Assembly: GCA_001717545.1 (NCBI GenBank)
Contig: CP017039.1
Coordinates: forward strand, 2,666,001-2,730,000
From: Anaerolineaceae bacterium oral taxon 439
Lineage (GTDB): Bacteria > Chloroflexota > Anaerolineae > Anaerolineales > Anaerolineaceae
Reading direction: 5' to 3'
Length of the DNA stretch: 64,000 nucleotides
A program made the translations under genes and the position numbers. Below are positions 8,777 to 52,820 of the stretch, in pieces. The notes beneath the pieces were generated by a model. It did no database searches and was not told the DNA's origin. It saw only the letters and a list, made by a program, of their open reading frames with translations. Every line of letters starts with the position of its first letter. Positions within the stretch are counted from its first letter, which is position 1.

Positions 8777-8856
<80 letters not shown>

Positions 8857-8931
8857 ATAGAGAGTGTAGCGCTGTTACCAAATGCTGTCAATACCGCGTC
8901 GTCAATGATCCGACCTGTTCCGCTCCGCGAA

Positions 8932-14145: not shown

Positions 14146-14165
14146 GTTAAAACAAAAAAGAAGAC

Positions 14166-14281
14166 GTTGGCGATTTCCTACTCTCCCAGGAGGTCGCCCT
14201 CCAAGTACCATCGGCGTTGACGCGCTTGACTTCCGGGTTCGGGATGTGTCCGGGTATTCCCACGTCGCTTTCGTCACCAAC
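14166..14281 (-). rRNA. rrf: 5S ribosomal RNA
   Basis: The 116-nt minus-strand sequence has paired ends (GTTGGTGA at the 5' end, TCGCCAAC at the 3' end) and the conserved 5S core (complement of GGTACTTGGAG and of CGATGGTAC near 14200-14212). It lies 69 bp after the 23S 3' end, the normal last position of the operon. Ends are assigned from the terminal helix. Confidence 0.93.
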
Positions 14282-14350
14282 ATCTTCTCAATCGTTTACA
14301 GTATGTAGCTCTTCCTTACAGAAGCCCCGAAAAGACCCCTGTTCCTTCCA

Positions 14351-17270
<2,920 letters not shown>

Positions 17271-17494
17271 ATGCAAGGAGCAGGGCTCTTTTCCCTTCCC
17301 CTTACTTTCTTCGTTCTCGGTTTTTTTACCTTGACTTTTTTTCTTGGTTACTTTTGTTAAATCTTTCAGATTTCTCTTCTGTTTGATTTAGCCTACATAC
17401 TGTATTCGATTGTCAATGTGCCCGTCTTCCTCTTTGAAAGACTTTTACTAATCGAATCCACAGATTCGCTCAGTAAAACTCCCTCAAATCCCTG

Positions 17495-17567
17495 TGGAGA
17501 TGGGGGGACTCGAACCCCCCGCTTCTGCCTTGCAAAGGCAGCGCTCTCCCGGCTGAGCTACATCCCC
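17495..17567 (-). tRNA. tRNA-Ala (anticodon TGC)
   Basis: 73 nt. The acceptor stem GGGGATG pairs with the 3' side ATCTCC (one mismatch/wobble) and ends in discriminator A. The anticodon loop TTTGCAA gives TGC, and the T loop is TTCGAGT. CCA is not encoded. It sits in the 16S-23S spacer after tRNA-Ile. Confidence 0.96.
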
Positions 17568-17580
17568 CTCCTCGTCCTTG

Positions 17581-17654
17581 TGGGCCATTCAGGACTCGAA
17601 CCTGAGACCTCGCCCTTATCAGAGGCGCGCTCTAACCAGCTGAGCTAATAGCCC
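17581..17654 (-). tRNA. tRNA-Ile (anticodon GAT)
   Basis: 74 nt. The acceptor stem GGGCTAT/ATGGCCC carries discriminator A, the anticodon loop CTGATAA gives GAT, and the T loop is TTCGAGT. This is the first tRNA of the 16S-23S spacer, 13 nt before tRNA-Ala: the classical Ile-Ala spacer pair. Confidence 0.96.
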
Positions 17655-17782
17655 TCCTTTGACAATTCAGAACCAGCAGAAATACCCCACCAGTCCCCCG
17701 TTCGAGACCTGATTCTGCTCCCGCTTCCTCAGGGTTTCTTTCGATCGTCTTCAGCCCTTGGACCTCCGACTCTCTCCATTTA

Positions 17783-19282
<1,500 letters not shown>

Positions 19283-39939: not shown

Positions 39940-40290
39940 TTACCCGAACAGCTCCCGATGCGCCAGGATCGCGGCCCCCGCGCTGCAGGCCGGACATAAG
40001 CAGTACCGGCTGCCATTGGCCTTCGCCTCCGTAAAAGCAACGATCATTTCCTTCACCTTCTCCTTACCAAAATGCCGCATTCCCGCTTCAGAAGCGAAAA
40101 AGCTCAGCGAATCATCGATCGTATTGACATCCTCCTCCAAAGCCGCGATCAGCTTCGAGGACAAATCGCTTTCGCGATCCGTCCCAACCGCCGCGAGCCA
40201 TTCCTCTCCAAGCTCCCGCAGCGGCGGATAGCAGGACTCCGCCGAAACCAGCTCCCGAACGAACGCAACTGCCTGATTCTTATCTGACAT
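39940..40290 (-). CDS. Small conserved cytoplasmic protein, unknown function
   Basis: This is a 116-residue mainly helical protein with a conserved-looking C-terminal Cys motif (YCLCPACSAGAAILAHRE). The pattern (RELGEEWLAAVGTDRE, LIAALEEDVNTIDDSLSFF, KANGSRYCLCPAC) resembles a family of about 110 residues that I recall from anaerobic Firmicutes, sometimes mislabelled as Hsp90; that link is from memory. The CxC-PxC array could bind a metal. A strong AAGGAGGAT ribosome site precedes the ATG. It stands alone between the pyr leader and the secreted-paralog array. Confidence 0.65.
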   Translation of the reverse strand: MSDKNQAVAFVRELVSAESCYPPLRELGEEWLAAVGTDRESDLSSKLIAALEEDVNTIDDSLSFFASEAGMRHFGKEKVKEMIVAFTEAKANGSRYCLCPACSAGAAILAHRELFG

Positions 40291-40410: not shown

Positions 40411-42369
40411 CTACCTGACGTCAACGACCGTGCTCCAGGCCGGGTCGCAATCGTAAAACGTCATATTCATCGGATCATAATCTTCTGGATATATTTCCCA
40501 CATTTTAGATAAACAGAACGAAATCTTAACCTTTTCCGTTTTTTCAAACGAATCATTATCCGCTTCATTTACGTGAACCTGCGTGAAGCCGGTATACGTA
40601 AACATGCGATCATAAAGCTTAAGCTGCGTTCCATCATCAGCTTCCAGAAAAACATGACTGTTATTAAGTTCAGGAGAAAATTGGTCATTGAACCCACTCA
40701 TGAACAGGATCGGCTGAATTGGATTGAAGCGCAAACTTTTCATCGTCAAATCATGCCCATTAATCGATATCGTTTTATTTATCGCGACATCTTTCGTTAA
40801 TTCCGCCAGCTCCGAGCCGTCCGTTTCAAATTCAAAGACCCATGGACCCTCCTCTGAGAAACATCGATACGTCCAGTACTCACTGTAAGATTCTTTATCT
40901 TCCCAGCATGTTTGAACATCGCGCACCGTCACACGAACTTGAATCGGGTCTTTCGGGGAGACGTAGCCTTCCCTTTTCATCAAAGAATTGCTGACCATAT
41001 TCATTACGACCAGCGGCTCCTCGTTTACATCGTTAATTCCCGGCTCGCCGCCACCGCCGCCCCCATGCAGCTTGGATGTCTCAAATTCCGGCGGATAAGG
41101 AAGGACAGGCCCGACATCAATCCACGCAGAACCAATCTCAAAACCTTTCAATAATTTTTGATCCTTCTTTAATTTATCCGTCCCGACTAAGAGAGAAACG
41201 GAGATATTATCTTCAGTCACCATCACCTTATCCAACAGGATCACAGTCCCATTCGGCGTCGTCTGTGCCAGCCGCACTGGCTTCGTATATTCGTTCTCTG
41301 AATCAAAGAAATCCCAAAGCCTATATTCCGGTTCAAAATCTGACATGAATTCTTCCAAATCAGTCGATTCCAACACTGTCGGAACGGTCATCGTCCCGAT
41401 CGCCTCATATCGCTCAATCCCCTGTCCTTCGTTCGCTGGGCCTGAAGCCGTTGCGAAGTAAGGCTTAATCGTCAGCGTTTCGGCATCCTTGATCCAATTC
41501 CACCCGTTATTATCTGCATCAGAATAAAAAGTCATATGCTCCCAAGCCGTCGCATCCTCTAACGGATAGCTATCTTCGTGGGTAAGTTGAATCTTATTTC
41601 CGCTTCCATCCTCAATAACGAAACCTAATAGATTCTCCGACGTAACGGTAGAGAAATATGAATCAAATTCTTCGTTATAGATAAGCTCATGTTCTTTAAG
41701 ATAACGAGTAACGCTAATCTGCGTCCGGAGCGGCGAGGAAACCATCTCGTCCACATCATACAGCGTATGCCCTGATAATATCGATTGATCCAACGTTTCG
41801 GATCGCGTCGACGCTCGCAGTTTTCGCCCATCCGCGTTGAACGAAATTTCCCATGGACCTTCTAATGTCTTTGGAAATCCCATTCCGCCGTCAGAATAAG
41901 ACATTTCAGTGAAAGAAACCGTCATTGGTATTTCGTCATTTTCCAAAACCTCTTTCGGAACCCTGGCGCTTAGAACGAACGTCACCGTTCCTTCGCAAAA
42001 AACGGAATCGTCTCCGGAGCCTCGGTCCCAGTCCCGCCAGATATCATACGACTCTTCGCCTATCCGCAGTCCATTTTTTTCATACCCGAATCCGAGCGAA
42101 TTAGCGTTCAGAATCTTTTCCGACGTCAGCGTTACGGAAAGATGAACGGTATCTCTTTCCAATATCAGCTCATTTAATCTGACGATAACGCCTTCAACCT
42201 CTTCGGACGCAGCGTCCAGCTTCTGAATCAACCCCTGATCATCCTTAATTCCGAACCAGTCGGCCAGCGTCGGCAACGCTCCATCTTCAGCGCGGCTCAC
42301 CGTCGGGACAGCGATCATCGCCGCCAGAACCAGCAGCAATACCGGATAAACCATCGTCTTTATTTTCAT
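40411..42369 (-). CDS. Secreted DUF4179-like paralog 1
   Basis: The protein has 652 residues. A signal peptide (VYPVLLLVLAAMIAVPTVSR, then AED) directs export. The first half (LADWFGIKDDQGLIQKLDAA onward) matches the extracytoplasmic domain of the anti-sigma factor encoded at 47711. The second half (DLEEFMSDFEPEYRLW onward) matches the protein at 46649. A conserved poly-Gly loop (HGGGGGGEPGINDVNEEPLV) lies near residue 440. Cysteines in QTCWED, RCFSEEG, SFCLS and FYDCDPAW recur in the paralogs. It is the last gene of the array. A role as an ECF-controlled surface protein or decoy of the sensor domain is inferred. Confidence 0.8.
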   Translation of the reverse strand: MKIKTMVYPVLLLVLAAMIAVPTVSRAEDGALPTLADWFGIKDDQGLIQKLDAASEEVEGVIVRLNELILERDTVHLSVTLTSEKILNANSLGFGYEKNGLRIGEESYDIWRDWDRGSGDDSVFCEGTVTFVLSARVPKEVLENDEIPMTVSFTEMSYSDGGMGFPKTLEGPWEISFNADGRKLRASTRSETLDQSILSGHTLYDVDEMVSSPLRTQISVTRYLKEHELIYNEEFDSYFSTVTSENLLGFVIEDGSGNKIQLTHEDSYPLEDATAWEHMTFYSDADNNGWNWIKDAETLTIKPYFATASGPANEGQGIERYEAIGTMTVPTVLESTDLEEFMSDFEPEYRLWDFFDSENEYTKPVRLAQTTPNGTVILLDKVMVTEDNISVSLLVGTDKLKKDQKLLKGFEIGSAWIDVGPVLPYPPEFETSKLHGGGGGGEPGINDVNEEPLVVMNMVSNSLMKREGYVSPKDPIQVRVTVRDVQTCWEDKESYSEYWTYRCFSEEGPWVFEFETDGSELAELTKDVAINKTISINGHDLTMKSLRFNPIQPILFMSGFNDQFSPELNNSHVFLEADDGTQLKLYDRMFTYTGFTQVHVNEADNDSFEKTEKVKISFCLSKMWEIYPEDYDPMNMTFYDCDPAWSTVVDVR

Positions 42370-42394
42370 TGAATTCCTCCTTATCGATGATTAG

Positions 42395-42441
42395 AGCGGG
42401 CCCGGCCTCGCCGGCAATCGGCGTCAGGAAACGGGCCCGCT
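42395..42441 (-). repeat. Intercistronic hairpin between paralogs 1 and 2
   Basis: AGCGGGCCCG/CGGGCCCGCT (42395-42404, 42432-42441) form a 10-bp stem; each arm contains a GGGCCC palindrome. No T tract lies on the transcribed side, so it is more a processing or stability element than a terminator. Confidence 0.65.
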
Positions 42442-42454
42442 TTTCCGTGGAACG

Positions 42455-44440
42455 TTACGGAAGCGCGATCACGACGTCCTGCGCGCCCTCGCAGTCGTAA
42501 AACTTCGGATCCTCCGGATCAAAATCCTCTGGGAACTCCGTGTAGTCCGAGAACTCCGGATAGCCGCAGCCGAACAGCGTCAGCGTCTCCGTCTTCTCCA
42601 GCGACGCGATCAGCTCGGGATCGACGATTTTCCTGGATAACCGCCTGAATGGCGCATCATCATATTCCAGGCGCATCGTCTTCCCGTCATCCGTCCTCGC
42701 GAAAATCGCATCCATTCCATCGTCTGCCCAGTTCGAATTTTCAATCTCGACAAAGAAAATCAGCTGCATCGGATTAAAGCGCAGCCGGTACAGCGACAAT
42801 TCACCCTGCCCGACCGTCAGCGTCTCGTCCAAATCAAACTCTTCCGTCTTCGCCGCCAGCTCCGCCCCGTCGGTCTCGAACTCAAACGTCCATTCGCCGT
42901 TTTCCCGGAAACAATGCGAATCAAAGTACAGGTCCTCTTCCGCCTCGGACTTGCCCCAGCAAACCTGATAATTTTGAATCGTCAGCCTGACCTGAATCGG
43001 ATCGCTGGCCGAAACGTAATCGTCTAAGAACATCAGGTCGCTCCGGACGCTGTCCACCGCCACAAACGGGTCGTCGTTGAGCTTATGCAGGTATGGACCG
43101 CCGCCCCCGCCGCCTCCATAGCGCGGCTTGAAATAATTTTCGGGATACGGGATCCGCGGCCCAACTTCGATCGTGTACGAACCGATCTGAAAATCGGACG
43201 GCTCCTGATCCAGGGCCTCCGGAAGCCCCATTAAAACCGTGACGAATAAATCGTTCTCCGTCACCAGAACCTTATCCAGCATCAGCGCCGTTCCAGCTTT
43301 CGTCTCATGCAGATGACGAACCGGCTTCACGTATGGGCTCGACGTATCGAGCGAACCAAGCAGCGGATCTTCAACGATATACTCCGGCTCGAACGAGAAC
43401 ATGAACCGATCCAGTTCGGTCGGGAAATCTCCGGCCGCCAACCGGATCGGCTCCAGCGCCATATACCGTTCGATCCCTTCGCCGCCCTGGCTCGGCCCCG
43501 CGGACGTCGCGACATACGGCGTCAGCGTTACATATTCCGCGTCCTTCAGCCAGCTCCAGCCGTTAGCCTCCGCGTCGGTCCTGAAGCCCCGATGAAGCGG
43601 CGTATCCTCGTCCGGCGGCCCCCCCCAATACGTATAAACCTCCGTGTCCAAATGCGTCCGGTTCCCCTCGTCGTCCGACAGGACGAATCCCAGCATCGAG
43701 CTGTTATACAGGTCCTGGCGCCGGTCCGCATCCGTCCCAGCCTTTCCCTGCCGCACGATCGGCAGCGTCAACGCTGCCCGGGCGCCGAACGGCGTCAGCG
43801 TCAGCGTATCGATCACGATCAATCGATCGTCGACCAGGATCGGACGATCGACCGCGATTTTCCGTACCGACTTCCATCTCGCGTCGAGATCCAGCAAAAA
43901 ATTAAAATACCAGCTTCCGCCGAATTCAATCCATCCTTCTTCCGTCCTGGCGCTTATTTTTGAAATACTGAGCGACAGATCCAGTTCGTCGCCATGAATG
44001 AATTCGTCCGGAATCTCCGCCGTCAGGACCAGCTGCATCGCGCCGGGGCGCAGGATCTCCGATTCGTCGGACAGCGCCGAATCGTATCGGTCAAACCCTT
44101 CCAGCGGAAAAGATTCCATCCCCAGCCAAAGCAGGTTTACATCAGATCCGAATTGTAAATCGTACAGGTCTTCAATCCGGTCCGAGACGACGTACGTCGA
44201 TAAATAAAGCTGATTTCCGTCGAGCAGGGCTTCTCGAAGCTGAATTTCAATTCCGTAGTGAACCTGCGCCGGGAGATCGAGTTGCTGAATCATGCCCGCG
44301 TCGTCCCCGTCCTCAACCCCAAACCACTTTGCCAACGGCTGATACGGTTCCCCGTCTTCGGCGTAGCCCGCCGTCGGAACGGCGATCAGCGCCGCCAGAA
44401 CCAATAGCAATACCAGATAAACGTTCAATTTTATTTTCAT
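42455..44440 (-). CDS. Secreted DUF4179-like paralog 2
   Basis: The protein has 661 residues with a signal peptide (VYLVLLLVLAALIAVPTAGY, then AED) almost identical to that of paralog 1. The first half starts LAKWFGVEDGDDAGMIQQLD and aligns with the anti-sigma sensor domain. The second half has the poly-Gly loop RYGGGGGGGPYLHKLNDDPF, then YVSASDPIQVRLTI, and the cysteines in QVCWGKS, SHCFRENG, FGCGYP and FYDCEGA. It lies between paralogs 1 and 3, with hairpins on both sides. Function unknown. Being exported and sharing both modules with its neighbours, it probably assembles with, or competes for, the same ligand. Confidence 0.8.
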   Translation of the reverse strand: MKIKLNVYLVLLLVLAALIAVPTAGYAEDGEPYQPLAKWFGVEDGDDAGMIQQLDLPAQVHYGIEIQLREALLDGNQLYLSTYVVSDRIEDLYDLQFGSDVNLLWLGMESFPLEGFDRYDSALSDESEILRPGAMQLVLTAEIPDEFIHGDELDLSLSISKISARTEEGWIEFGGSWYFNFLLDLDARWKSVRKIAVDRPILVDDRLIVIDTLTLTPFGARAALTLPIVRQGKAGTDADRRQDLYNSSMLGFVLSDDEGNRTHLDTEVYTYWGGPPDEDTPLHRGFRTDAEANGWSWLKDAEYVTLTPYVATSAGPSQGGEGIERYMALEPIRLAAGDFPTELDRFMFSFEPEYIVEDPLLGSLDTSSPYVKPVRHLHETKAGTALMLDKVLVTENDLFVTVLMGLPEALDQEPSDFQIGSYTIEVGPRIPYPENYFKPRYGGGGGGGPYLHKLNDDPFVAVDSVRSDLMFLDDYVSASDPIQVRLTIQNYQVCWGKSEAEEDLYFDSHCFRENGEWTFEFETDGAELAAKTEEFDLDETLTVGQGELSLYRLRFNPMQLIFFVEIENSNWADDGMDAIFARTDDGKTMRLEYDDAPFRRLSRKIVDPELIASLEKTETLTLFGCGYPEFSDYTEFPEDFDPEDPKFYDCEGAQDVVIALP

Positions 44441-44474
44441 TCGCTTTCTCCTTATCCCTGACTTAAAAGAACAT

Positions 44475-44500
44475 GCGGGCGGCCCGAATGAACCGCCCGC
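44475..44500 (-). repeat. Intercistronic hairpin between paralogs 2 and 3
   Basis: GCGGGCGG/CCGCCCGC (44475-44482, 44493-44500) form an 8-bp stem with a 10-nt loop. On the transcribed strand it is followed by ATGTTCTTTTAAG, a weak T tract, so partial termination is possible. Confidence 0.65.
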
Positions 44501-44510
44501 TGATCCTGAT

Positions 44511-46469
44511 TCAGTTGAGGTCGATGACCGCGCTCCACGCCGGATCGCAGATATAGTAATCCAGATCGGAGTAATAATAACCGGCAGGAACCTTTTCCGG
44601 GTCGGGGACGCAGAAGCCGATTTTCAGCTTCTCCGTTTTTTCCAATGCCGCGATTTCGTCCGGATCAACCGTTTTTAAGGAAAAACCTGAAAACGGATAG
44701 GAACGCGGATTCAATCGCAGCCGCGTCCCGTTATCCGTCTCAACATACGCGTTCGAATAGGATCCGTCCCACTTTAAATCACCGGTAAAAAGGATCAGCT
44801 CCATCGGATTAAAGCGCAGCCGGTTCAGCTTTATTTCGGTTCCTTCGACGTCGACCGTTTCGTCTAATTCGATCTCTTTCGTCAGCCTCGCCAGCTCCGC
44901 GCCGTCGGTGTCAAACTCAAACGTCAGAGGTTCCGTTTCAGTATAACAGGCCGACGTATACCGTTGAGGGGCTATTTCTTCATCCCAGCAGACTTCCACC
45001 CGCAGTATCCGGACTTTGACATGCATCGGATCTTTCACAGACACATATCCGTCACTGTACATCAGGTTCCTGCCAATTCCGTCGTAAACGACCAGCGGAT
45101 CTTCATGGACAACGTTGATATACGGGCCTCCGCCGCCTCCGCCGCCGAGTTTGATTTCAAAATAATCCGGCGGGTATGGGACGACCGGCGAAACGTCGAT
45201 ATCATATCCGTTGATTTGGAAATCGGACGGAACAACGAGATTCTTCCCGTTCTTCTCCGCGATTCCCATCAGGACAGATATATAAATATTGTCCTCCGTG
45301 ACAAGAACTTTATCGAGCATGACCGTCAGCCCGTTTTTCGTCGTCTGCATCAGACGCACCGGTTTAACATACGCGTTCCGCGTGTCGAGCCCCCCGTATA
45401 ACGTGTAATCCGGCTCAAAATCCTCCATAAACGTTTCGATTTCGGTCGGTTCCGACGCGGTTTTTACCTGAATCGGTTCCAGCGGCAGGTAGCGGTCTAT
45501 GCCGTCCGCTTCCATATTCTGCGGCCCGGCAAGGGACGTCATGACCGGCGTCACCGTAATTTCTTTCGCCTCTTTAAGCCATGCCCAACCGTTATTCTCG
45601 GCCGTCGAAAAATAATCGATCTCGACGACCGGTTTCGGTTGTTCCGAAAGATAGTCATATTCGGGATACGCCGCTTCGATCCGATTCCCGTTTTCATCCG
45701 TAACGATAAAACCGTGTAAATTCCCCGGCGTCGAATAAAGCCAGGAGCCTTTCTCGAAGTCGTCTCGTTCGAGAACTTCTTTCGGAAGCATTCGTTCGAC
45801 GCTGATCCGCGCGCGCATCGGCGAACAAGTCAGCGTAAGCGCCGTAAATAATTCCCCGTCTCCAACGAACGGGTAATCGAGTTCAAATCCGCGCGTCAGC
45901 TCTCTCGGTTTCGTCATGTCCGCCGTAAAATCGAACGACCAAAACCCGTGTAAATCGACGCCCAGCAAGCCTCCCTCATCCGGGATATAGATCTTATCAA
46001 TCGCCAGATGCATCGGGACTTTATCGCCGCTCAATAACGATTCCGGGACGACAGCCGTCAGCACGACCTGAACCGCGCCGTCCCGTTTTCCGTCCGGGAA
46101 AAGCGCGTACGCGGCTGAACTTGACGAACTCCCATACAAATCAAAAAAATCAAGCAGCCCGATCCTCAGCCCATTCTCAATATGACCAAGCTGCAGCGAA
46201 TTCACATCCTCAATTCGATCAGATTTGACCATGATCGAGAGGTGGACCCGATGATTTTCAATCAGGATCTCACGCAATTCGATCCCGATCCCATGATGCG
46301 TTACCGGCGGAAGATCGATCGCCTGAACCAGTCCCTCCGGATCCTCAAAGTCAAACCACTCCCGAAGCGGGACGTAGTCCGCGTCTTCCGCGAAAACCCC
46401 GCCCGCCAGCACACAGCAACCGAATATGACCCATAAAAGCGGCAGCAACAGATAAGTTTTTCGATTCAT
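44511..46469 (-). CDS. Secreted DUF4179-like paralog 3
   Basis: The protein has 652 residues. The signal peptide (LLLPLLWVIFGCCVLAGGVF, then AEDADY) could be cleaved at an Ala site. The sensor-like first half (LREWFDFEDPEGLVQAIDLP, THHGIGIELREILIEN) is the closest of the three to the anti-sigma domain, which has LREWFAIQSHPELVETLDVP. The second half has LGGGGGGGPYINVVHEDPLV, YVSVKDPMHVKVRI and FYI/YYICDPAWSAVIDL. It is preceded by its own ECF-type promoter (46584-46611), which should drive paralogs 3, 2 and 1. A good ribosome site (AAAGGAG) precedes the ATG. Confidence 0.82.
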   Translation of the reverse strand: MNRKTYLLLPLLWVIFGCCVLAGGVFAEDADYVPLREWFDFEDPEGLVQAIDLPPVTHHGIGIELREILIENHRVHLSIMVKSDRIEDVNSLQLGHIENGLRIGLLDFFDLYGSSSSSAAYALFPDGKRDGAVQVVLTAVVPESLLSGDKVPMHLAIDKIYIPDEGGLLGVDLHGFWSFDFTADMTKPRELTRGFELDYPFVGDGELFTALTLTCSPMRARISVERMLPKEVLERDDFEKGSWLYSTPGNLHGFIVTDENGNRIEAAYPEYDYLSEQPKPVVEIDYFSTAENNGWAWLKEAKEITVTPVMTSLAGPQNMEADGIDRYLPLEPIQVKTASEPTEIETFMEDFEPDYTLYGGLDTRNAYVKPVRLMQTTKNGLTVMLDKVLVTEDNIYISVLMGIAEKNGKNLVVPSDFQINGYDIDVSPVVPYPPDYFEIKLGGGGGGGPYINVVHEDPLVVYDGIGRNLMYSDGYVSVKDPMHVKVRILRVEVCWDEEIAPQRYTSACYTETEPLTFEFDTDGAELARLTKEIELDETVDVEGTEIKLNRLRFNPMELILFTGDLKWDGSYSNAYVETDNGTRLRLNPRSYPFSGFSLKTVDPDEIAALEKTEKLKIGFCVPDPEKVPAGYYYSDLDYYICDPAWSAVIDLN

Positions 46470-46583
46470 GACAACTCCTTTACTTGCGAACGATCAACCT
46501 GCGCGCGACCCGTTCACGCCCGATCGCGCATCGTCATGTCCTTAGGGGACGAGCCCTGCCTGCGTACAACATCCCCATTGTAA

Positions 46584-46611
46584 TAGACGTTTCATTCGTA
46601 AAAAAAGTTCC
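46584..46611 (-). promoter_or_regulatory. ECF-type promoter upstream of paralog 3
   Basis: On the minus strand GGAACTTTTTTT starts at 46611, and after 17 bp comes CGTCTA (complement of 46584-46589). GGAAC plus CGTCTA at 16-17 bp spacing is the classic bipartite pattern of ECF sigma factors. It lies 115 bp before paralog 3 and after the stop of the 46649 gene, so it gives the downstream paralogs a sigma-dependent start independent of the sigma operon promoter. Confidence 0.72.
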
Positions 46612-46648
46612 AACGTTTTCTTAAAATTCTGGCGATGCGTTCTGAGCG

Positions 46649-47698
46649 TTATTCGAGATCGATGACCGTGCTCCACGCCGGATCGCAGGTATAAAACCTG
46701 ATACTCTCCCAATCGTAATCTTTCGGCGGTTCGCCGTTGATCCGATTCAGGCAGAACATAACTTTCAAGGCTTTCGTTTTTTCTAACGATTCATTAAGCG
46801 CTTCGGCAACAATCTTTCTATCAAATCCATTATAGGGATTACTACGCTCAAAAAGACGGAGTTGCGTCCCGTCGTCCGCTTCAATGAAAGCCGTAAGACC
46901 ATAAATAGAATCTTCCTGATATCCACGATTTGCGCCGCGTCCGCTTGTGAAAAGAATGATGTGGAACGGATTAAAACGCAGTCGATCCAACGAGAACTTC
47001 TTCCCGTCGATTTCAAACGTTTCATGCATCTCAAATTCTTTCGTTTTCGCGGCTAATTCCGCGCCATCCGTATCGAACTCAAAATTCCAAGGACCGTTTT
47101 CTTTAAAACAGCGAGGCTCGGAATAATCATCAATAACAACAACGTCCCAACATATCTCATACTTTAGAATCGTAACCTTAATATGCATCGGATCTTTCGG
47201 CGAGACGTACCCGTCATCGAACATCAATTCACTCCGAATAAAATCGTAAACAACAAACGGATCGTCATGGATTTTATTCAGAATCGGCCCGCCTCCGCCG
47301 ACTCCGCCATGAATTATTTCAAAATAATCCGGCGGATACGGTATGTGCGGCGTAACTTCCATCATTGAGAGTCCAAGTTGAAAACTGCTTGGAGCCGCCC
47401 AATTCTCACCTCGCGGTTCCACCCCCAGCAACACGGAAACAGTGACATCGTCCTCGGTAACGAGGACTTTATCGAGCATAATGACAACGCCGTCATCCGT
47501 CGTTACCGCCTGACGCACCGGCTTTGCATACGGACTTGTTGTATCCATTCCTGATAAAAATGTTTTGTCTGATGTCGGATAATCCGGCTCAAAATCCTCC
47601 ATGAATTTTTCGAGATCGCTCTGCGCTGTCACGGCTGTCAAAGCAAACAACAACATCAGCATGGCACACAAAAAGACGAACAGTCGATAGTTCTTCAT
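46649..47698 (-). CDS. Secreted protein equal to the C-terminal half of the paralogs (split partner)
   Basis: The protein has 349 residues. It has its own signal peptide (LFVFLCAMLMLLFALTAVTA, then QSD) joined directly to DLEKFMEDFEPDYPTSD, the point where the second half of the full-length paralogs begins. It then follows them to the end: HGGVGGGGPILNKIHDDPFV, YVSPKDPMHIKVTI, EICWDVV, RCFKENG, MFCLNR and FYTCDPAWSTVIDL. The missing first half is present in the anti-sigma protein encoded 12 bp upstream, which ends in GIERFHALEPINVSL. The two genes together equal one paralog plus an anti-sigma head. Confidence 0.85.
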   Translation of the reverse strand: MKNYRLFVFLCAMLMLLFALTAVTAQSDLEKFMEDFEPDYPTSDKTFLSGMDTTSPYAKPVRQAVTTDDGVVIMLDKVLVTEDDVTVSVLLGVEPRGENWAAPSSFQLGLSMMEVTPHIPYPPDYFEIIHGGVGGGGPILNKIHDDPFVVYDFIRSELMFDDGYVSPKDPMHIKVTILKYEICWDVVVIDDYSEPRCFKENGPWNFEFDTDGAELAAKTKEFEMHETFEIDGKKFSLDRLRFNPFHIILFTSGRGANRGYQEDSIYGLTAFIEADDGTQLRLFERSNPYNGFDRKIVAEALNESLEKTKALKVMFCLNRINGEPPKDYDWESIRFYTCDPAWSTVIDLE

Positions 47699-47710
47699 AT
47701 CTTCTCTCTC

Positions 47711-48898
47711 CTATTTCAGACTGACATTGATTGGTTCCAACGCATGGAAACGCTCAATCCCGGGCGCATTACCCTGAGGTCCGGCAAGCGTTACAATATA
47801 CGGCGTCAGCGTCACAGACTCGGCGTCTTTAAGCCATTCCCAACCGTTATTTTCACTATCCGAATAAAAAACGCATTCCTGCAGCTCTTCGATTTCAGAG
47901 GTGTAGTCAATGTCACGGCGAGATATTTCAGCCCGGTTTCCGTGACCGTCCTGGAGGACAAACCCCAATAAATTTCCCTGCGAGTCGGAGGACCAGAATT
48001 TGTGTCCATAAATTTCGCCGACAAATTGTTCCACCTTCAAAAAACGTTGAACGCGAATCCGTGAACGAATCGGGGAAAAAAGCATTTCAACCGCCGTATA
48101 CGTTCGTCGGTCGCCGGTAAATGTACGGTCAATGGCAACCGTGCGCGTCAGGTCTTTGGCTTTCTTTCCGTTGACCGTAAATTCAAAGACCCAAGGACCA
48201 TTAAGATGTGTTCCGGGACTGTCTGAATAATCCGAAATCGAATCGATTTGCAATTTCATGGGAATCTCGCCGTCGGTAAGGAATTCCTTCGCAACATCCG
48301 CGCGCAAAATAATCATGATCCTCGATTTCGGATCACTTTCGTCGGAATACCCCAAATGCTGTGATTGGTACCACCATTCTTGATTCAAAGCGAAGGATTG
48401 ATTCCCAATCGTCAGTCCGTCCTGAACAATACCGATCTGATGTGTAAAGTTAGTAATCTCCTTGCCGGCGCTTACGAATACCGAAAAATACACCCGGTTA
48501 TCCTCGATCAGCACCTCTTCCAACTTCATCTCAACGCCATGATGGCTTACTGCCGGAACGTCGAGCGTCTCGACCAGTTCGGGATGCGATTGAATCGCGA
48601 ACCACTCGCGCAGCGACTGCGTCAATTCCGCCCAGACGATTTTTCCGGTCGGCGTAGACAAAAAAATCAGTAAAACGACGCAGACCGCCGCGATCGCGCC
48701 GAAAACGGGACGGCGTCCGCGCGTAAAAGGCCGTAAAAATCGGAACCGCGCCGGTTTTGCTCCCTCTCCCGCGGCCAACGCGGCATACGTTTCAAGGCAT
48801 ACGTCGCATTCTTTCAGATGGGCTTCCATCTCGGACATCCGCCGTTCCGACAGCTGCCCGCTCAGGTACAGCGCCCATTCGTACGCTTCAATGTGCAT
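47711..48898 (-). CDS. Anti-sigma factor with zinc-finger head and DUF4179-like sensor domain
   Basis: The protein has 395 residues. Residues 1-45 form a ZAS-type anti-sigma head with His27, Cys31 and Cys34 (AHLKECDVC). A basic linker leads to one membrane helix at about 66-82 (FGAIAAVCVVLLIFLS), then an extracytoplasmic domain of about 310 residues starting LTQSLREWFAIQSHPELVET. It should hold the ECF sigma factor encoded upstream (11-bp overlap) at the membrane until a signal is sensed outside. The sensor domain is the same module as the first half of the three secreted paralogs. Confidence 0.9.
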   Translation of the reverse strand: MHIEAYEWALYLSGQLSERRMSEMEAHLKECDVCLETYAALAAGEGAKPARFRFLRPFTRGRRPVFGAIAAVCVVLLIFLSTPTGKIVWAELTQSLREWFAIQSHPELVETLDVPAVSHHGVEMKLEEVLIEDNRVYFSVFVSAGKEITNFTHQIGIVQDGLTIGNQSFALNQEWWYQSQHLGYSDESDPKSRIMIILRADVAKEFLTDGEIPMKLQIDSISDYSDSPGTHLNGPWVFEFTVNGKKAKDLTRTVAIDRTFTGDRRTYTAVEMLFSPIRSRIRVQRFLKVEQFVGEIYGHKFWSSDSQGNLLGFVLQDGHGNRAEISRRDIDYTSEIEELQECVFYSDSENNGWEWLKDAESVTLTPYIVTLAGPQGNAPGIERFHALEPINVSLK

Positions 48899-49436
48899 TA
48901 GTATTCCTCCATTTCTCGCGAATCATCTGACGCGCGCGGTAAATTCGCGTTTCGACCGTGCGCGGGCTCAGTTCCAACGCCGCGGCAATTTCCTTGACCG
49001 AGCGGTTGGTTCGGTAATACATCTCCAAAGGAACACGGTAAAGTTCATCCAGTTCGCCGATCAGCCGCCGCACCTCTGAAAGCGTCTCATCGGCGATAAT
49101 TTCCGCTTCAGGAAGGCGCGAATTCGGCGACGGGACCCGGTCTTCGTCAAGCTCGTCCAAGCTGAGCCAATCTTGTTCTCCGCGCCACTTTTTCTTCGTG
49201 TCGATCGCGTGATTCACGGCGATCCGCGCGATCCAGGCTTTGAAATTGGCACCGGACCAGCTGTCCATCGCAAAATAAATCTTTTGCAGAACTTCACAAT
49301 AGAGGTCGTCCGTGCCGTCGGGCGTCCGGATAATCCCGTAAATAATCTTTTTAAGATACGCTTCGTACGGACTGACCTTCGCCTCAAACAGGCCATACGG
49401 CATGCGGCGTGGTATCGTTGCTGTTTCCTGTTTCAA
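48888..49436 (-). CDS. ECF-subfamily RNA polymerase sigma-70 factor
   Basis: The protein has 182 residues. Region 2 spans about 20-90 (YEAYLKKIIYGIIRTPDGTD, then LQKIYFAMDSW and FKAWIARIAVNHAIDTKKKW), and region 4 spans about 120-178 (LDELYRVPLEMYYRTNRSVK, IAAALELSPRTVETRIYRAR). No region 1 or 3, as expected for ECF factors. Its last 11 bp overlap the anti-sigma gene, the normal partner-switch layout. The promoter upstream is unclear: TTGACG lies near 49487-49492 without a convincing -10, and I see no GGAAC/CGTCTA pair there. Its likely target is the promoter at 46584-46611. Confidence 0.95.
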   Translation of the reverse strand: MKQETATIPRRMPYGLFEAKVSPYEAYLKKIIYGIIRTPDGTDDLYCEVLQKIYFAMDSWSGANFKAWIARIAVNHAIDTKKKWRGEQDWLSLDELDEDRVPSPNSRLPEAEIIADETLSEVRRLIGELDELYRVPLEMYYRTNRSVKEIAAALELSPRTVETRIYRARQMIREKWRNTNAH

Positions 49437-49677
49437 GAATGCTCTCCTTTCCGCCTTAATTTAAAAGACGAAAAAATCGAATGGACTACGTCAAAGGTGA
49501 AGCCCTGCAATCAATATGATCGCGCAAACCGAAATCCATTCGATCCAAATCGAAGGATATAAGGCCGAAAAGCGACGATCGGATATCGCCTACCTAAACA
49601 CTCGATTATTAACGAAAAAACGTCCGACAACGCGGACGTACCATCAAAAACAGGAGAAAAACAGGATTTTACGCAAG

Positions 49678-50604: not shown

Positions 50605-51618
50605 TTATTCTCCCGCCAACGCTGCGGGAATGAAATCGTTCGTGAACGCCGCGTGAATATCGATATCCGCCGTCAGGTACCCCATCCGGCGCATGACCTC
50701 CGCCATCGTCTCCCAGGCCGCCGGATTTGACGCGCCCAACGGCCGACCGTCCGCAGCGTACAGTTTCATTGTCTCCTCAAGGACCCGCTTCTGAAGCTCC
50801 TGATCCGCGACATCCTTCAGGTTCTCGATCCGCTGCAAACAGATTTGATACGCTTCCTCCGGATGATCGAGCGTATACTGGATCCCGCGTAAAAATGCCC
50901 GCGTCATGCGCTCGACCAGCGCCGGATTTTCGCGAATGACCGCTTCATTCGTAATCAGTCCGTTCGAGACCATCTCCGCCGAATCGGCGACCCGGATTAA
51001 ATGGACCTGCTCCCCCAGCGCTTCCAGCTGAACCGGTTCGTTCGTCGTGTACACGACGCCGGCATCCAAAGCGTCCGTCGTCAGCAGCTCCACCTGAGCG
51101 TAACCGACCGCTTCCAGCGCCAGATCCTGATCGCGCATGCCCGCCTCCTGAAGCAGCGCCTCCAACCCGATATAACTCGCGCCGGACAACGCGGGGATCC
51201 CTACCTTTTTTCCCTTGAGCGCTTCAACCGTCGTCAGCCCTTTTTCCGCGAGCGAAACGATCCCGACCGGATACCGCCGGTACCATTCGGCAATGTAAAC
51301 CAGCGGGAGTCCCTGGTTCCGGCCCAATAAAACCTGTTCCCCGGAGCAGATCCCGAACGGAATCGACCCCGCCCCGACCAGCGCGACTGTGTCGATTTCC
51401 ATATTATGATCGAGCGTCACGCTCAGGTCTTCATCAGCGAAGAACCCTTTTTCGACTGCGACGTAAAGCGGAGCGAACTGAACGTTGGGAACGAACCCGA
51501 CCGGGAGCGTAATTTCCTCCGCGGCATACCCGACCCGCAGCGCGCAAACCAGCGCGGCCGCCAGCACAACATAGATCATCGTTAACTTCTTTTTCACCTG
51601 ATAACCTCTTTGATTCAT
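50605..51618 (-). CDS. ribY: NMT1/THI5-like substrate-binding protein, probable riboflavin binder RibY
   Basis: This 337-residue exported binding protein starts with a signal peptide (LTMIYVVLAAALVCALRVGYA). The mature part begins ITLPVGFVPNVQFAPLYVAV, then EKGFFADEDLSVTLDH, as in the NMT1/THI5 family, and has GKKVGIPALSGASYIGLEAL. In Chloroflexota, proteins of this family next to a SsuC-like permease under an FMN riboswitch are known as RibXY, a riboflavin transporter. No lipobox is visible. The gene lies between the permease (31 bp upstream) and the ATPase. Confidence 0.85.
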   Translation of the reverse strand: MNQRGYQVKKKLTMIYVVLAAALVCALRVGYAAEEITLPVGFVPNVQFAPLYVAVEKGFFADEDLSVTLDHNMEIDTVALVGAGSIPFGICSGEQVLLGRNQGLPLVYIAEWYRRYPVGIVSLAEKGLTTVEALKGKKVGIPALSGASYIGLEALLQEAGMRDQDLALEAVGYAQVELLTTDALDAGVVYTTNEPVQLEALGEQVHLIRVADSAEMVSNGLITNEAVIRENPALVERMTRAFLRGIQYTLDHPEEAYQICLQRIENLKDVADQELQKRVLEETMKLYAADGRPLGASNPAAWETMAEVMRRMGYLTADIDIHAAFTNDFIPAALAGE

Positions 51619-52472: not shown

Positions 52473-52511
52473 TCTGATTCGAAAACAGGACTTCGTCCGC
52501 AAATTCGCGCT

Positions 52512-52633
52512 GCCTTTTTTCATCCGGACTCTACCGTCGATTCCGGAATTGCGCCGGATCAGCGCCGCGTACGGCGCGCGTGGATTATACCACCGGTCGG
52601 GAATCGGCTCATGCCTCACCCTGCCCCAAAGGT
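52512..52633 (-). promoter_or_regulatory. FMN riboswitch (RFN element)
   Basis: Read on the minus strand, the conserved blocks of the RFN element appear in order: GGGGCAGGGTGA, GATTCCCGACCGGTGGT, TAATCCACG, a variable stem (CGCGCCGTACGCGGCG), GATCCGGCGCAATTCCGG, then ATCGACGGTAGAGTCCGGAT followed by GAAAAAAGG. The closing P1 helix is CCTTT/AAAGG. FMN binding normally turns expression off. Downstream lies a terminator and the ribXY-ATPase operon. An insertion (GGCATGAGCC) lies in the first conserved arm. Confidence 0.92.
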
Positions 52634-52820
52634 TTTCTTTTCTATTGAATTTTACCGCAAAACGTGGTAACGCCGCAAAAAAATCCTGACGTCGGGGCCG
52701 ATCCCACAGGAATGTGGGTTGTCAAGTCCTTTTTTGATTTATTGCCGCAGCTTCTTGACCGCAAAAGTTTTTCCGTTATACTAATCATACAAATCATACT
52801 TAAAACCAGGAGGCAGGAAA

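Follow-up and report, generated by a model that had tools for sequence, protein, structure and literature searches.

In the 64,000-nucleotide stretch of the Anaerolineaceae bacterium oral taxon 439 genome analysed here (contig CP017039.1, positions 2,666,001 to 2,730,000; hereafter the window, with positions counted from its first letter), the minus strand carries at 40411-49495 a locus that consists of a promoter-like site, the genes for an extracytoplasmic function (ECF) sigma factor and its anti-sigma factor, and then four genes for exported proteins. Most likely, the locus encodes an RsiV-like anti-sigma factor gated by signal peptidase, together with soluble relatives of its sensor part that would bind either the ligand of the sensor or the sensor itself. 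The explanation that we favour, with a confidence that stops somewhat short of even, is that the locus is a DUF4179 (RsiV / BAS1627-like) ECF switch with exported sensor relatives acting as an inducible soluble-receptor trap. The locus is composed as follows, A denoting the anti-sigma ectodomain and B a second module:

49463-49495, minus strand: candidate autoregulatory ECF promoter, TTTGACGTA-N16-CGTCTTTT, upstream of the sigma gene (matrix score 24.5)
48888-49436, minus strand: ECF sigma factor, 182 amino acids (Sigma70_r4_2 48 bits, Sigma70_r2 26.9 bits, TIGR02937 64.4)
47711-48898, minus strand: anti-sigma factor, 395 amino acids (zf-HC2, transmembrane segment, VWA site, ectodomain A)
46649-47698, minus strand: exported protein B, 349 amino acids (signal-peptide-like N-terminus and module B)
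44511-46469, minus strand: exported A-B fusion F1, 652 amino acids
44475-44500, minus strand: in the gap between F1 and F2, a GC-rich hairpin whose T tail is weak (terminator scan and folding)
42455-44440, minus strand: exported A-B fusion F2, 661 amino acids
42370-42454, minus strand: GC-rich hairpin without a T tail in the gap between F2 and F3 (folding z -3.1, -37 kcal/mol)
40411-42369, minus strand: exported A-B fusion F3, 652 amino acids

The sigma and anti-sigma genes overlap by 11 bp, as a first-pass annotation of this DNA had reported, and its coordinates for all open reading frames were likewise correct. The anti-sigma gene is followed by B after 12 bp, and the next gaps measure 179 bp (B to F1), 70 bp (F1 to F2) and 85 bp (F2 to F3). 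The identification of a sigma/anti-sigma pair is well founded, with regions 2 and 4 of the sigma factor exceeding the Pfam cut-offs, TIGR02937 matching it at 64.4 bits versus a cut-off of 42.9, and zf-HC2 matching the anti-sigma factor at 23.3 bits versus a cut-off of 22.2, together with the HxxxCxxC motif and the transmembrane segment of a zinc-finger anti-sigma factor; the NCBIfam equivalog sigma models listed all remain under their cut-offs for this sigma factor. The anti-sigma factor has a single hydrophobic segment, which starts at residue 65 and is followed by a signal-peptidase-like site, VWA, at residues 88-90. The same arrangement recurs in all eight anti-sigma factors found in the genus: HxxxCxxC, one transmembrane segment, a VWA, AWA or VLA triplet that begins 22-25 residues after the first residue of the most hydrophobic 19-residue window, followed by a slightly amphipathic stretch. 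All eight have small residues at -3 and -1 directly past the membrane segment, as expected for gating by signal peptidase, a pattern that was picked after the sequences had been read.

Direct comparison shows a kinship between sensor and exported proteins. The anti-sigma ectodomain recurs, at 31-37% identity, in the N-terminal half of each of the three large exported proteins, as the first-pass annotation had proposed (F1: 37%, E 2.3e-59; F2: 31%, E 9.5e-41; F3: 32%, E 1.4e-53). Local alignment of these halves with the ectodomain after residue 85 gave scores of 371-502 versus 48-66 for the best of 200 shuffles, which disposes of the possibility that the similarity is absent. The second module also exists alone as gene 46649-47698, which is 43-49% identical to the C-terminal halves of the fusions (E 6e-97 to 2e-79). 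B is itself homologous to ectodomain A (25% identity over 95 amino acids, E 1.9e-6), and a profile-profile comparison with hhalign gave a probability of 99.3% (E 4.6e-20), so that module B is, by sequence, a divergent copy of A. Because A, B and the fusion halves are homologous, all genes of the array are built from the fold of the sensor. Further copies were not found in this genome outside the locus, neither with F1 as the query (five places) nor with profile A2 (seven places), all of which lie here.

Structure prediction points to the fold in question. In a search of the Protein Data Bank (PDB) with Foldseek, the AlphaFold model of the anti-sigma factor (pLDDT 74, pTM 0.65) had 3FBQ, which passages of PMC6066255 describe as the ectodomain of a DUF4179 anti-sigma factor, as its sole match at E <=0.001 (E 1.2e-9). 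The TM-score was 0.43 by query and 0.57 by target, and the two structures superpose with Z 13.9 and an rmsd of 4.2 over 249 residues at 12% identity; for the A half of F1 the corresponding values are Z 14.5 over 247 residues. In the VIA lists 3FBQ alone stands clear, and Ig-like, adaptin-ear and adhesin folds, which follow at Z 5-8, are taken as the general likeness among beta-sandwiches. The model of F1 (pLDDT 76) yielded three more Foldseek matches, with E 4.5e-4 to 9.3e-4 and TM-scores of 0.05-0.23. A sequence search of solved structures with alignments A1 and A2 gave no match, 3FBQ included. Together with DUF4179 (PF13786) matches below the curated threshold of 30.1 bits (F1 22.4, F2 17, a relative's anti-sigma factor in L023 28.4, and 25.5 for the best DNA match in the own genome, at the start of F2), the fold match supports the earlier assignment of a DUF4179-type ectodomain. 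DUF5643 (PF18705) exceeds its cut-off of 34 bits in F3 (36) and stays below it in F1 (30.4) and B (21.7); F2 is not listed.

The claim that the downstream proteins are secreted also fared well. The N-termini of B and F1-F3 are hydrophobic and contain an A-x-A-like site, as read from sequence features without a signal-peptide predictor, and the four proteins have no lipobox, no LPXTG motif and no second hydrophobic segment. In F1, F2 and F3 the predicted cut sites (VFA, GYA and SRA) end at residue 27, and the LREWF-type segment starts shortly after them, a spacing read by eye; since the cut precedes this segment so closely, the mature fusions would match an ectodomain that has been released by cleavage. 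The same features bear on the idea that the beta-sandwich fold has been reused, under control of the sigma factor, for a structural, adhesive or matrix protein that shares no ligand with the sensor. Exported, multi-copy and diverged arrays of beta-rich tandem modules would suit such an envelope or surface protein, as would the weak fold likeness to adhesin domains, which stands among many beta-sandwich folds. However, the proteins have none of the anchoring features just listed, and this explanation does not account for exported relatives beside a sensor of the same fold in six of eight loci or for A halves that group with their own anti-sigma factor (see below); we regard it as unlikely.

Related loci were found within the genus. 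The profile of the B module matches in 5 of 14 genomes of the genus, of which those in G001 are only weak cross-hits, so that B proper is present in four; among genomes sampled evenly across the class it matches 1 of 396, the own genome, the other carriers being outside that sample. The A profile matches 5 of 147 genomes of the family, all within the genus, and the named records with matches are metagenome-assembled genomes (MAGs) of uncultured Anaerolineaceae and Chloroflexi. An anti-sigma gene followed by an exported relative occurs in four congeners and, with the window, in 5 of 14 genomes of the genus, and the arrangement is therefore conserved in relatives, the lack of which the first-pass annotation had named as grounds for giving up its proposal. 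The A-B fusion form is found only in the window genome; in relatives, B or B-like proteins are encoded by genes of their own. The following loci were read, with gene names such as efp assigned by us from the translations:

G003: anti-sigma (5'-truncated at the contig edge), three B genes, then efp
G007: sigma, anti-sigma and four B genes, at a contig end
G007, further contig: one whole and one partial B gene, then efp
G008: sigma, anti-sigma and B
G008, second locus: sigma, anti-sigma and an exported protein of 330 amino acids
G001: sigma, anti-sigma and an exported protein of 333 amino acids
G007, C257: sigma, anti-sigma and an exported protein (G007dS) without detectable relation
G007, C300: sigma and anti-sigma alone

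Including the window, a sigma gene is present in 7 of 8 anti-sigma loci (in G003 the contig begins only within the anti-sigma gene), and a demonstrated exported relative adjoins the anti-sigma gene in 6 of 8. Other Chloroflexota loci with DUF5643 provide a contrast: a sigma gene is present in 7 of 9, whereas a relative of the sensor itself was found beside 0 of 9 (BLASTP at E 0.01, open reading frames of at least 90 amino acids in 8-14 kb). The nine are those of ten non-own DUF5643 loci found in 400 genomes that remain when G652 is left out, and the contrast is good but not complete, because the same BLASTP test recovers only 5 of 7 pairs of sensor and downstream gene in the genus, one of the misses being the unproven G007dS. 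For G007dS no relation was seen at E 10 with a 26-row profile, and the hhalign probability was 0.6%; a candidate relative in G047 reached only E 6e-4, and its open reading frame appeared unrelated by eye. An orphan gene, G007eS (C544; L083 4245-5309), encodes an ectodomain relative (E 3.6e-21) with no hydrophobic N-terminus in the open frame and no sigma or anti-sigma match in the surrounding 9 kb, and was excluded from the locus counts. Searches of viral contigs and of plasmids led nowhere. It should be noted that two of the G007 B genes, B1 and B2, share a 332-bp tract that is 98.5% identical (L023 5917-6248 and 7027-7358), while outside it they are about 40-83% alike in 60-base steps; the tract reflects either gene conversion or a fault in the MAG assembly.

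A tree of 28 domains separates two histories within the array. All 13 B modules fall into a single clade (100/100). The A halves of the fusions share a second clade (100/100) with the ectodomains of the anti-sigma factors from the window, G003, G007 and G008, and within it they group with the anti-sigma factor of their own genome (100/99) and with one another (94/84). Several branches are long, and G007dS, which was included, occupies the longest. Alignment A1 omits the incomplete B gene that lies at one end of the G007 contig C121, and alignment A3, in which the anti-sigma rows were placed on the B half, was set aside. On the basis of these groupings, B is by sequence an older companion of this anti-sigma clade, present in four of four genomes having the clade, and the A-B fusions are home-grown, assembled in the window lineage from its own A and B. 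The first-pass description of the array as amplified copies of its own sensor domain therefore stands for the A halves and has to be revised for B, which is an older paralogue lineage. It is less clear whether the copies descend by duplication from a single fusion. The A halves put F1 and F2 closest to each other (99/93), whereas the B halves join F1 and F3 with the stand-alone B (95/91) and leave F2 outside; because the two groupings disagree, the copies may have exchanged sequence later, or fusion may have happened more than once. A separate exported lineage, G001S and G008bS (98/91), sits behind other anti-sigma factors.

Two rivals of the trap draw on this history. The first is that the exported proteins are byproducts of duplication, that is, tandem copies of the sensor region which lost the cytoplasmic half and drift without a selected role. 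Tandem copies that are diverged and lineage-specific in number, as well as the nearly identical tract shared by two copies in one relative, would be in line with this idea; but the four genes in the window have intact frames with signal-peptide-like N-termini, B has been kept as a single clade across four genomes, its 13 aligned rows sharing 37 invariant columns, and the second exported lineage sits behind other anti-sigma factors. Drift is very improbable, and like a structural role it is less likely than a trap or a co-receptor. The latter is the second rival: B, like the B portion of each fusion, would bind ectodomain A of the anti-sigma factor and set a threshold or stop its cleavage, the fusions being self-contained or competing versions of the same device. 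The B gene comes immediately after the anti-sigma gene, B and this anti-sigma clade are found together in all four genomes, there is one B lineage per anti-sigma clade, and the fusion of A with B suggests, by gene-fusion logic, that the two modules are in contact. Nevertheless, the pTM of the F1 model is only 0.49, too low for any A-B interface in it to be relied on; no Pfam match to RseB-type domains was found in B or F1-F3 up to E 1; and three fusions, or the five whole and one partial B genes on two contigs of one relative, exceed what a simple brake needs. Taken by itself a co-receptor or brake is doubtful, and yet it comes close behind the trap, explaining the fusions and the invariable pairing nearly as well.

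The trap is favoured because several exported versions of the sensor fold sit behind the promoter-like site of the sensor itself. Sites of the type TTTGAMGTA-N16-CGTC, first spotted by eye, precede the sigma genes with available upstream DNA, and a matrix built solely from the sites of five relatives scores the site in the window at 24.5, the best value in the 64 kb, the next elsewhere being 12.9 and the maxima of six shuffled windows 13.6-19.3. In leave-one-out analyses, 0 of 200 shuffles reached the score of the window site and six of seven sigma genes stood out clearly, no more than 1 of 200 shuffles attaining their score; the site of the G008 sigma gene is weak (score 13.5, reached by 3 of 200 shuffles). 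In G007 the promoter-like site lies one base ahead of the assumed start of the sigma gene, which is for this reason probably wrong. The shared upstream site suggests an autoregulated ECF operon, and owing to the tight packing of the sigma, anti-sigma and B genes, B very likely belongs to it. F1-F3 may be expressed by read-through at falling levels, or from promoters of their own. Folding of the F1-F2 gap gave z -3.2, and the hairpin is a possible attenuator or terminator, a class of sites that is not enriched in the scanned region (18 versus a shuffled mean of 14.7).

Under the explanation of a trap, and following the precedent of RsiV, a ligand would bind ectodomain A and expose the signal-peptidase site, the anti-sigma factor would be destroyed by signal peptidase followed by the site-2 protease, and the freed sigma factor would transcribe its own operon. 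Read-through would then raise the level of B and, at least in part, of F1-F3, the mature proteins would bind the same ligand outside the cell and neutralise it, and removal of the ligand would switch off the response; A and B are proposed to act together because they are physically joined in F1-F3. A second reason for favouring the trap is that RsiV not only senses lysozyme but also inhibits it, according to passages of PMC5014341. The more specific version, in which diversified ectodomains, single or fused in tandem, capture an attacker outside the cell and terminate the response, with the size of the array varying by species, is more speculative and is put forward with correspondingly less confidence.

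Several observations weigh against parts of this explanation. For the switch, DUF4179 scores only 18 bits in the anti-sigma factor itself (E 0.0039), DUF5643 likewise reaches 18 bits and stays under its cut-off, and the lysozyme-binding domains of RsiV (DUF4163 and DUF3298) have no Pfam match up to E 1. A pair of guarding helices as in RsiV receives no support from the model, in which residues 47-90 have a pLDDT <50 and the VWA site is followed by just a short helix at 96-99; the helical moments of the amphipathic stretch, 0.31-0.48, stand without a control. A site-2 protease family is present, as it is in 14 of 14 control genomes, and counts for that reason as no evidence. Acidity of the exported proteins, considered as a clue to a cationic ligand, was dropped, other exported proteins of the window being similarly acidic. 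For co-expression, none of 16 control regions, including those upstream of B, F1, F2 and F3, holds a significant site. The highest lies before F1, TTGGAACTT-N15-CGTC, which seemed convincing by eye but was rejected as a sigma-dependent promoter: its score (11.4 in the window scan, 11.3 among the control regions) is within noise, sixth of 43 window sites above 8 and under all six shuffled maxima. The 179-bp gap before F1 and the hairpins between the fusions also make joint expression of the fusions less certain. The earlier suggestion that the exported proteins are produced on the same signal gains indirect support from the promoter-like site before the sigma gene and the packed sigma, anti-sigma and B genes, with the lack of a significant site before the array genes against it. 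A wider regulon was rejected as well: the strict pattern has five matches in three of five genomes versus four for the reversed pattern, and no regulon beyond the sigma gene can therefore be claimed. Three of the five matches precede sigma genes, and it is their position, not their number, that exceeds chance; the others lie antisense inside an open reading frame (L084) and inside one of 468 amino acids (L085).

The surroundings of the array contain further features. A gene for 116 amino acids without a Pfam match (39940-40290, minus strand) lies 120 bp behind F3, and its membership in the array is not clear. On the other side, an FMN riboswitch (52508-52637, minus strand) precedes ABC-transporter genes, including one for an NMT1/THI5-like binding protein (50605-51618), which perhaps encode an importer of a flavin precursor. 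An rRNA operon (14165-19280, minus strand) has two tRNAs between 16S and 23S. At 8778-8859, 13-14 copies of TATACA form part of the leader of a gene whose exported product has no Pfam match, between a TTGACA-17-TACACT site (seen by eye) and a likely ribosome-binding site, and phase-variable expression is possible.

Among the literature matches listed, which were mostly open-access and consisted of titles and the starts of abstracts, neither a trap of secreted sensor copies nor a paralogous co-receptor is described, and DUF5643 is absent from the mostly open-access literature searched, whereas DUF4179 does appear. The exported relatives offer ready, purifiable probes for the ligand of a DUF4179/3FBQ-type sensor. 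If the trap is true, the locus would be a simple genetic form of feedback by ligand removal; if the exported proteins bind the sensor instead, sensor and partner would form a paralogous co-receptor pair.

Compared with known systems, the locus resembles RsiV and sigma-V in its ECF sigma factor and single-pass anti-sigma factor, and in a DUF4179-like segment with membrane segment, signal-peptidase-type site and amphipathic stretch; in Bacillus subtilis RsiV the DUF4179 segment holds the membrane segment, the signal-peptidase cut and the guarding amphipathic helices, as passages of PMC6066255 relate. It differs from RsiV, whose ectodomain consists of DUF4163/DUF3298, domains not found in this anti-sigma factor, and for which the cited passages of PMC6066255 and PMC5014341 mention no secreted ectodomain relatives; RsiV-like gating may operate in a protein that is not classed in the RsiV family. 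With the BAS1627-type anti-sigma factor (3FBQ) the ectodomain shares its predicted fold (Z 13.9 over 249 residues), in spite of a very low sequence identity (12%). The other Chloroflexota DUF5643 loci also have an ECF-type sigma neighbour (7 of 9), but no relative of the sensor itself was found among the neighbouring reading frames (0 of 9). In Escherichia coli, RseB binds RseA and is an exported partner encoded directly behind the sigma/anti-sigma pair. The position of the exported genes is alike here; the difference is that the exported proteins share ancestry with the anti-sigma ectodomain, a copy of which is fused to some of them, and that Pfam detects no RseB domain in them. In design, an inducible soluble-receptor trap would have its parallel in the soluble cytokine receptors.

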